In this document: positions 7,920-10,109 of the stretch, one piece after another
How the letters are laid out: each line of letters begins with the position of its first letter
How positions within the stretch are numbered: the first letter of the stretch is position 1
Source of the DNA: Omnitrophica bacterium GWA2_41_15
GTDB taxonomy: Bacteria; Omnitrophota; Gorgyraeia; Gygaellales; UBA12090
Length of the DNA: 33,223 nucleotides
Direction: 5' to 3'
Assembly: GCA_919902675.1 (NCBI GenBank)
Contig: CAKKRH010000045.1
Coordinates: forward strand, 1 to 33,223
Translations under genes and position numbers: made by a program
The notes under the pieces: generated by a model
What the model was told of the DNA's origin: nothing
The model's database searches: none
Seen by the model: the letters and a program-made list of their open reading frames with translations, nothing else

Positions 7920-7934
7920 AAAGGTATAGAGAAT

Positions 7935-8067
7935 GTTAAATCCTAAACACGAAATCCTAAGCCCTAAACAAACACAAAATATAAATTCTCCAAACAAAAA
8001 ATAAGATTTTTTGAGTTTTGGGTTTAGAATTTCAGGTTTATTTAGGATTTATGGTTTAGGGTTTAAC
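7935..8067. repeat. Imperfect long inverted repeat of degenerate CCTAAAC-like words
   Basis: Left GTTAAATCCTAAACACGAAATCCTAA; reverse complement of right arm GTTAAACCCTAAACCATAAATCCTAA. Confidence 0.75.
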
Positions 8068-8104
8068 AAATAATGGCGTATCGTTATAAACAACGGAGAA
8101 ATGA

Positions 8105-8620
8105 ATGCTATGTGACGTATGCGCGGCTAACCCCGCGACAGTGCACCTGACAGAAATCGTGGATGAGCAAATGACCGAGCTCCATCTTTGCGAGGAATGC
8201 GCCAAGAATAAATCCAGCGAGATGGAGCAACAGTTCGGCTTGGCCGACCTTTTGGCCGGGCTCTCGGATTTAGGAAAAGGGACGGTTGACACCAAAGAAA
8301 GCCTGAAAATTAAATGTCCCAACTGCGCTCTGACCTACGCGGATTTTAAGAAAGTGGGCCGCTTAGGCTGCGGCGAGTGCTATACATCTTTCCGTAAATA
8401 TCTCCTGCCCCTCTTAAAGCGCATCCATGGCTCAAATAAACATTACGGAAAGATGCCCCTGGTTTTGGCCAAGCCGCTAAAGACAAAAACCGATATTGAA
8501 GAACTGAAGCTAAAGCTACAAAAAGCAGTTTCTATCGAAGACTTTGAAGAGGCGGCGCGGATCAGGGATATAATTAAGAAGTTAGAAAACAGCGGACCAG
8601 AATACAAGGATACGCCATGA
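8105..8620 (+). CDS. mcsA: McsA-type protein (zinc-binding, UVR domain), activator of arginine kinase
   Basis: CDVC...CEEC and CPNC...CGEC pairs, UVR-like C-terminus (LKLKLQKAVSIEDFEEAARIRDIIKKLE), next to McsB. Confidence 0.9.
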   Translation: MLCDVCAANPATVHLTEIVDEQMTELHLCEECAKNKSSEMEQQFGLADLLAGLSDLGKGTVDTKESLKIKCPNCALTYADFKKVGRLGCGECYTSFRKYLLPLLKRIHGSNKHYGKMPLVLAKPLKTKTDIEELKLKLQKAVSIEDFEEAARIRDIIKKLENSGPEYKDTP

Positions 8621-8903
8621 ACCCCGCCCTTCCTAACAATGGCATTATGTATACTGGCTAAAGAGCAATAAGATGCCAAGAATCTATATTGGTTGTGCCA
8701 ATAATTTAGAAAAAAGACTAAAAGAGGATATCAAAGGAAAAGTTTATTCAACTAAAAAAATGCTGCCGGTAGAATTAATTTATTATGAGGCCTATCCATC
8801 AAAAGATTACGCATATGAACGAGAAAAGAGTTTGAAGACTTATGGAAGCAGTTTAGCGAAGATTAAGTCGCGCCTTAGGCTGACCAAGGAAGGAAGGGCG
8901 GGG
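8621..8903. mobile_element. Candidate GIY-YIG mini-element with perfect 13-bp terminal inverted repeats
   Basis: CCCCGCCCTTCCT (8622-8634) / AGGAAGGGCGGGG (8891-8903); flanking TGA at 8618-8620 and 8904-8906; encodes GIY-YIG-like ORF. Confidence 0.7.
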
Positions 8904-8906
8904 TGA
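8639..8906 (+). pseudogene. GIY-YIG nuclease-like ORF with apparent 1-nt disruption after the start codon
   Basis: HYVYWLKSNKMPRIYIGCANNLEKRLKE...YEREKSLKTYGSS readable in frame from 8643; track ORF starts at internal ATG 8673; ATG 8639-8641 is out of frame by one base. Confidence 0.65.
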
Positions 8907-9952
8907 AATTAGACGATTTACTCAGCCATTCCAGCGAATGGCTTAAAGGAAGCGGGCCAAATTCAGATATTGTGATTTCCAGCCGGATAAGGCTGGCCAG
9001 GAATATCGCGGCCAGATTCTTTCCTCATTGGGCGGATAAAGCGCAGGGAGATGAAACCGCGGGGATCATTTATCAGGCTATCCAAAAGGTAGATTATCTA
9101 AAAAAGAATACCTATTTTAAGCTTTCCGAGATGGATAATGTGGATAAGCAATTTCTGGTGGAGCGCCACCTGATGAGCCGGGAGCAGGCCTCTAAGCCCA
9201 ACTCCAAGGCGGTAGTCATTGATAACGAGGAAATCATCTCTATAATGATCAATGAGGAGGACCACCTCAGGCTCCAGGTGATGAAATCCGGTTTTGACTT
9301 ACTTGACGCCTGGGAGATAATGAACAGGATTGACGACGCCCTTTCCAAAGAGCTAATCTTCGCTTTCTCCTCGGAATACGGCTACTTAACAGCCTGTCCC
9401 ACCAATACCGGAACCGGAATGCGCGGCTCGGTGATGCTGCATTTGCCGGCCTTGGTAATGCTCAGGACCATAGATAAGGTCCTCTCAGCAATTGCCAAAC
9501 TAAGCTTTACCACCCGGGGCCTTTACGGAGAAGGAACCCAGGCTATCGGAAATTTCTTTCAGATCTCTAACCAGATTTCCTTGGGCCATAATGAGGATGA
9601 GATTATCAGTAACATCAACGGGCTTATCCGCCAGGTTATTGAACATGAGGAAACCGCCAGGGGTGTATTGCTAAAACAACAGAAAACTCTTTTGGAAGAC
9701 AGGGTCTGGCGTTCTTTAGGCATACTCAAAAACTCCTTCATCATCTCATCGCAGGAGACCACGGAATTACTTTCCATGCTCAGGCTGGGCATTGATTTAA
9801 GTATCGTTAAGGACATTGACCGCAGGACAGTAAATGAATTATTTATTCTGATTCAGCCGGCGCATCTGCAAAAGTTGGAAAGCAAAAAACTCAGCAGTCA
9901 GGAAAGAGACATTAAAAGGGCAAGTCTGATTAGAAGTAAGTTAGTGAAATGA
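8903..9952 (+). CDS. mcsB: Protein arginine kinase McsB (GTG start)
   Basis: Guanido kinase motifs SSRIRLARN, CPTNTGTGMRGSVMLHLPAL, TRGLYGEGTQAIGNFFQISNQISLG. Confidence 0.93.
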   Translation: MKLDDLLSHSSEWLKGSGPNSDIVISSRIRLARNIAARFFPHWADKAQGDETAGIIYQAIQKVDYLKKNTYFKLSEMDNVDKQFLVERHLMSREQASKPNSKAVVIDNEEIISIMINEEDHLRLQVMKSGFDLLDAWEIMNRIDDALSKELIFAFSSEYGYLTACPTNTGTGMRGSVMLHLPALVMLRTIDKVLSAIAKLSFTTRGLYGEGTQAIGNFFQISNQISLGHNEDEIISNINGLIRQVIEHEETARGVLLKQQKTLLEDRVWRSLGILKNSFIISSQETTELLSMLRLGIDLSIVKDIDRRTVNELFILIQPAHLQKLESKKLSSQERDIKRASLIRSKLVK

Positions 9953-9964
9953 AAGTAAAAAGGC

Positions 9965-10109
9965 AAAAGTAAAAAAGTAAAAGTAAAAAGGTAAAACTAA
10001 AAATCAAAAGGTAAAATCAAGACTAAAGCGAAAAAAGGCGCGTATCTTAAAAACAGCTTTCATTCTTTTATCGTAGTTTTACCTTTTGAGTTTTAACTTT
10101 TTACTTAAC
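9965..10109. repeat. Intergenic inverted repeat of AAAGT/AAAGGT words upstream of clpC
   Basis: AAGTAAAAAGGTAAAACT (9981-9998) vs reverse complement of AGTTTTAACTTTTTACTT (10089-10106), 17/18. Confidence 0.8.

Follow-up and report, generated by a model that had tools for sequence, protein, structure and literature searches.

A short GIY-YIG nuclease element between mcsA and mcsB of an Omnitrophota bacterium is likely a copy of a minimal DNA transposon

How did a gene for a small GIY-YIG nuclease come to lie between mcsA and mcsB, two genes of a conserved operon, and what could have put it there? In an Omnitrophota MAG, the window (the whole 33,223-nucleotide stretch of DNA analyzed here) holds an insert of 282 bp at this junction, at positions 8622-8903 (Table 1). 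A preliminary description had proposed that a GIY-YIG reading frame enclosed by perfect 13-bp inverted ends had inserted cleanly into the operon, with a 3-bp target duplication and without a recognizable transposase. The ends are indeed perfect, and reach 14 bp if the outer A/T pair is counted. The 13-mer occurs seven times in the 1.74-Mb genome, and its reversed-pattern control does not occur at all. The enclosed frame matches the Pfam GIY-YIG domain PF01541 (E 9.3e-12), and neither the window element nor its relatives have any other open reading frame.

Table 1 Features of the window element and of the genes on either side
Feature	Position	Strand	Evidence
mcsA (UVR-motif protein), upstream host gene	8105-8620	+	ORF; Pfam UVR, E 7e-8
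Left copy of the 4-bp target duplication, TGAA, inside ATGAA 8617-8621	8618-8621	+	Empty sites in congeners; duplications at other copies
GIY-YIG nuclease gene, frameshifted	8617-8906	+	Length relative to relatives; alignment of 5' ends; Pfam GIY-YIG
Left terminal inverted repeat, CCCCGCCCTTCCT	8622-8634	+	Sequence
77-aa mechanically listed ORF	8673-8906	+	ORF list
Right terminal inverted repeat, AGGAAGGGCGGGG (exact reverse complement of the left)	8891-8903	+	Sequence
mcsB (ATP:guanido phosphotransferase domain), downstream host gene, with element-derived GTG start	8903-9952	+	ORF; Pfam, E 3.8e-68
Right copy of the target duplication, TGAA	8904-8907	+	Sequence; empty sites in congeners

We compared this junction with that of close relatives. 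Two congeners, whose McsB is 96% identical, lack the insert and carry a single RTGAA at the empty site (GCCGTGAAATTAG and GCAATGAAATTAG), their junctions reading GCC-GTGAAATTAG and GCA-ATGAAATTAG. The occupied site in the window reads GCC-ATGAA-[CCCC...GGGG]-TGAAATTAG, and thus 4 bp, TGAA, have been duplicated. The proposed clean insertion with a target duplication therefore stands, whereas its 3-bp size is ruled out by these empty sites and by other copies in which the duplicated 4-mer is not TGAA. The search for further copies in the source genome was also fruitful. Elsewhere in this genome lie copies that share these ends and have flanks of the TGAA type, and four short ones (on contigs C6, C13, C16 and C44), with 4-bp duplications of TTCA, TAAA, TCAA and TTCA, respectively, have clean empty alleles in the congeners. 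In addition, one congener (G001) carries an intact 283-bp GIY-YIG element in another operon, for which the counterpart in the other (G002) is a single ATGAA with no element. Together with the window element, this amounts to six insertions with empty alleles. A copy between infA and rpmJ on contig C30 was left out of this comparison, as the insert at this ATGA junction in the congeners is another, diverged one; a tandem copy on contig C48 gave no clean alignment. In more divergent relatives, the mcsA/mcsB junction itself holds other short elements, with CCCCGCACCTT-type ends at one locus (L080) and GCCCCGTCCTTCC-type ends at another (L082).

The empty alleles bear on whether the insert is mobile DNA at all. 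GC-rich palindromes can function as RNA structures when they lie between the genes of an operon, and the inverted repeats could be a regulatory hairpin or terminator around an incidental reading frame that never moved. The arms of the window copy are, however, 256 nt apart, and a search of positions 8000-9500 against Rfam gave no match, including no intron RNA structure around the nuclease gene, so that an RNA element or a group I or II intron was rejected. Empty sites and target duplications contradict an immobile RNA element directly; on the evidence of the empty alleles it is refuted, and we give it next to no credence.

Mobility extends well beyond this locus. Homologous GIY-YIG elements occupy other operons in other genomes, as discrete units, 265-330 bp long and bounded by terminal inverted repeats of 13-16 bp, at many unrelated sites. 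Inverted repeats bracket 24 of the 29 nearest homologues in related genomes at a score of at least 11 (random placements for this set average 7-9, with a highest score of 13), as well as 21 of 40 weaker homologues, about half of which thus lack inverted ends. Among 81 further relatives, 80 from named genomes and one from a viral contig, 59 are bracketed, compared with 10 of 324 control placements; the phyla represented include Omnitrophota, Patescibacteria, Planctomycetota, Aminicenantota, Nitrospirota and Verrucomicrobiota. We distinguished end types A (CCCCGCCCTTCCT, that of the window element), B (CCCAGCCCCTCCT), C (CCCCGCACCTTCTT), D ((T/C)CCCGTTAGACC), E (CCCCGTTAGAGAT) and F (CCCCCACACCAA), plus a CCCCTCAC type. 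A tree of 91 proteins requires 16 changes of end type, as against a mean of 55.8 after shuffling, with none of 200 shuffles as low. Type A forms one clade (support 100/98), and type D is spread over several phyla. This co-segregation is somewhat favored by construction, since the right repeat encodes a few C-terminal residues and near-copies were included. Duplications of TAAT, CTTG, TTTA and TAAA were also found at copies bearing the GIY-YIG gene. Carriage of the element by viruses was rejected: a scan of viral contigs with a single protein found no relative and one with an alignment found a single relative, and PHROGs gave only weak homing-endonuclease matches.

Many copies are short. A scan of 195 related genomes revealed type-A ends in 49 and type-C ends in 38, with reversed-pattern controls near zero. 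In two genomes, G167 and G150, almost all copies with such ends are palindromes of 68-128 bp, and internally deleted, MITE-like copies number up to about 20-25 per genome. A perfect 4-bp duplication flanks 57 of the 62 short copies examined in these two genomes. The duplicated 4-mers include CTGA, TTGA, TTTA, TAAA and TGAG, and this variety means that the duplicated bases belong to the target and not to the element. In G167 the short copies resemble that genome's autonomous element minus its middle. Where copies lie in tandem they have one TGAA in common, as if the element's own end were a good insertion target.

What moved these copies? They may be MITEs mobilized in trans by an ordinary transposase, of an insertion sequence of the DDE type or of the RAYT/IS200 type, with the GIY-YIG frame as a passenger. 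Many short copies have no reading frame, and RAYT-type Y1 transposases are present in seven of eight genomes checked. Furthermore, G150, a one-contig genome, has about 40 type-A arms, and a search of it for a type-A nuclease found none; either the partner nuclease has been lost there or something else moved its copies. Yet of the paired type-A arms listed, none belongs to a coding element other than a GIY-YIG one, and all remaining pairs form short palindromes; the type of terminal repeat, moreover, follows the GIY-YIG tree across phyla. Genomes with a type-A nuclease also more often have type-A arms in addition to the two of the element itself (6/7) than genomes without one (42/188; Fisher p 0.001). 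The window element contains no alternative transposase, with the proviso that DDE families were outside the genome-wide search. RAYT was rejected as the mover despite being common in the hosts: it was not detected in G185, an 88% complete genome with type-A elements, and IS200/605 chemistry leaves no target duplication. Mobilization in trans, in whichever form, thus seems unlikely to us. The GIY-YIG protein is itself probably the mobility enzyme, because the arm pairs examined yielded no further coding element with such ends. This remains an inference without biochemical evidence, as it was in the preliminary description, and is now backed by the co-segregation of ends and enzyme in addition to the lack of another coding element.

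Comparison with known mobile elements points both ways. Terminal inverted repeats and a fixed 4-bp duplication with empty alleles are what defines prokaryotic transposons and insertion sequences, and both are present, as are short non-coding copies with the ends and duplication length of a coding element, which define MITEs. With DDE-type elements the family also shares tens of short deleted copies per genome. It differs from them in that the sole protein is a GIY-YIG one, with no DDE, Tyr, Ser or HUH transposase in the window element or its relatives, as well as in its size, its start-codon sites and a right repeat resembling a ribosome-binding site. REP systems have Y1 transposases and no target duplication. 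The short copies resemble RAYT/REP-REPIN sequences in being dispersed, GC-rich intergenic palindromes, but they have 4-bp duplications and a GIY-YIG partner, and do not meet the definition of that group.

In the subfamily of the window element, the insertion sites are translation starts, often with an overlapping stop. At all 63 elements with a TGAA duplication, A or G precedes the TGAA (ATGAA or GTGAA), compared with 576 of 1271 background TGAA sites (45%). The start codon at the right junction opens a reading frame of at least 60 codons in 58 of the 63 (fewer codons were accepted where the fetched stretch ends), and in 28 the stop of the upstream frame overlaps the insertion site. In the window, the mcsA stop (TGA, 8618-8620) falls within the left duplication. 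Each of the 17 GIY-YIG elements flanked by TGAA duplications points the same way as the host gene; 14 of them use the host ATG or GTG as the nuclease start, and in most the nuclease frame ends with the right-hand TGA. In intact relatives of the window element, the nuclease gene accordingly runs from the ATG of the ATGAA target to the right-hand TGA, and the left repeat codes for NPALP. Across the family, the repeats encode both termini of the protein, MNPALP, MNPAPP or MNPVRP at the N-terminus and GRAG, GGAG or GLTG at the C-terminus.

A new start for the host gene is supplied at the other end. The right ends of types A-D carry Shine-Dalgarno-like purine runs (AGGAAGG, AGGAGG, AGAAGG and GGAGG) that lie a few bases upstream of the new start; there is no such run in type E, the target of which is TAAA. 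In the window, the right-end sequence AGGAAGGGCGGGGTG places AGGAAGG (8891-8897) 5 nt ahead of GTG 8903-8905, the mcsB start formed by the last G of the element and the duplicated TGA. The invaded operon is therefore probably still translatable. The presumed start-region target can be written as AGGAGnnnnnATGAA. Targeting, selection or both could produce this pattern and cannot be separated here; selection may be part of the cause. Past mobility, the 4-bp duplication, the deletion derivatives and the placement at start codons can be taken as demonstrated insofar as genome comparison alone can do so, and the earlier reading of the window element is, on the same footing, largely supported.

The window copy itself appears to have lost its function. 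With a core of 282 bp, it is one base shorter than three close relatives (L041, L043 and L045, each 283 bp), and alignment of the 5' ends places the missing base after position 8638. As a result, the ATG at 8617 does not read into the nuclease frame (8646-8903), which stops at TGA 8904-8906. Because of this frameshift, the shorter frame that opens at ATG 8673 has neither the first motif of the GIY-YIG domain nor its first beta strand. Unless the frameshift is an assembly error, this is, judged from its sequence, a decaying copy. It is probably dead and no longer able to move by itself, as its nuclease gene is frameshifted.

What does the intact protein look like? It is a bare GIY-YIG domain of about 96 aa with a short tail (AlphaFold pLDDT 83.5). 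Its nearest relatives by sequence in the PDB are UPF0213 (1zg2, E 3.5e-12) and SLX1 (7cq2, E 1.7e-6), which are also its nearest neighbors in fold. The expected catalytic-type Y, R and E positions are invariant across homologues, and NCBIfam has no family above cut-off for the protein. By motif and fold it thus qualifies as a UPF0213/SLX1-like member of the GIY-YIG superfamily, with endonuclease activity inferred. SLX1 is a structure-specific endonuclease that acts on branched DNA. Unlike the protein described here, neither UPF0213/COG2827 nor SLX1 is known within an element with terminal repeats and target duplications, nor, to our knowledge, are the related Ssn single-stranded DNA nucleases of Neisseria. 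We consider it likely that the window element represents one copy of a minimal DNA transposon that carries no gene besides the one for this nuclease.

GIY-YIG genes between host genes are familiar from phage T4, and the element might instead be a free-standing homing endonuclease of the Seg type, spreading to homologous sites by double-strand-break repair, with its inverted ends incidental. The fold, the intergenic position and the orientation, which is that of the neighbors, all match the T4 seg genes SegA-G (PMC2988022). Yet terminal repeats, 4-bp duplications, many non-homologous sites per genome and deletion derivatives are foreign to intronless homing. Seg genes home to allelic sites and have no known terminal repeats, target duplications or MITE-like derivatives, so that of the marks of a Seg-type gene only the intergenic GIY-YIG nuclease is found here. 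Free-standing T4 enzymes moreover cut hundreds to thousands of bp from their own gene (PMC2988022). As far as these comparisons go, homing is largely refuted, and we regard it as very improbable.

How might a GIY-YIG transposon move? GIY-YIG enzymes hydrolyze DNA and we know of none that joins it, which is why we do not presuppose a reaction purely like that of a transposase. Instead, the protein would recognize the terminal repeats together with a ribosome-binding-site-like target that resembles the element's own end (AGGA..GTGAA), and would nick 4 nt apart. The host would then finish the insertion and fill the duplication, either by repair and ligation or by repair templated on a donor copy. 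The nuclease frame would be expressed from the host gene's own ATG, the Shine-Dalgarno-like motif of the right repeat and the duplicated TGA would give the displaced gene a GTG start, and the insertion would thereby be left nearly neutral for the host. Some observations count against a GIY-YIG mechanism. Cleavage by SegA, a relative from T4, produces a 3' extension of 2 nt (PMC2988022), as opposed to the 4-nt duplication here; moreover, roughly half of the weaker homologues lack inverted ends, and some are found in tRNA genes instead. On balance we lean, with less assurance than for the window element itself, towards a new class of DNA transposon in Omnitrophota, Patescibacteria and other phyla. 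It would encode a single GIY-YIG nuclease, target start sites through a ribosome-binding-site-like sequence that its own repeats mimic and regenerate a working start with each insertion, and a subclade in Patescibacteria would do likewise at the 5' ends of tRNA-Ala genes.

A review of transposable element classification describes prokaryotic transposase chemistries without GIY-YIG (PMC5718144). In the openly licensed literature, the only literature searched, we found no description of a GIY-YIG element with terminal repeats and target duplications, and within it no known family of bacterial jumping genes was found to use a GIY-YIG enzyme. If the protein is the mobility enzyme, it adds a catalytic class of DNA transposon, and one of minimal size, with one protein of about 96 aa in about 330 bp at most. 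The element illustrates a low-harm route into dense operons, in which it takes the host start codon for its own gene and provides the host gene with another start and ribosome-binding site. It would also account for the GC-rich palindromes scattered through these uncultured genomes, and for the many small GIY-YIG genes there that lack an explanation. It affects the annotation of start codons, and the hypothesis can be tested directly in laboratory bacteria.

Several further observations were made. Two 50-bp copies in the source genome (G000:C16:51385-51434 and G000:C13:116438-116487) form, with their 4-bp duplications, in-frame inserts of 18 codons (54 nt) inside glutamate-synthase-like and transporter-like genes, both sites being empty in the congeners. 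In this they resemble Rickettsia palindromic elements; they differ in that most copies here lie at start codons and have ends matching a GIY-YIG-coding element. A repeat of about 54 bp ending AGCGCGAGAGAGCAATTGAGCAA has many dispersed copies in congeners G001 and G002 (L155-L169), and adjoins rpmJ at the end of contig C30 of the source genome. AT-rich imperfect inverted repeats (GGTTTAGGGTTT type and GTAAAAAGGTAAAA type) lie on both sides of the mcsA-mcsB pair in the window, at 7920-8085 and 9950-10085. Seven GIY-YIG elements (L104, L108, L112, L114, L115, L137 and L060) sit in a palindromic context, CGAATT...AATTCG, which suggests either a second repeat family used as a target or longer ends.

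tRNA genes adjoin some members of the family. GIY-YIG elements of the CCCCTCAC type from Patescibacteria and one other bacterium (L184, L215, L230, L234 and L238) abut tRNA-Ala genes, which start inside or beside the right terminal GGGG. Four GIY-YIG homologues without inverted ends (L124, L109, L125 and L133, in G116, G150, G007 and G001, respectively) have a copy of a tRNA gene's 5' half on either side, tRNA-fMet-like for L124 and L109 and tRNA-Arg for L133, as if a sister lineage inserted into tRNA genes and rebuilt them.
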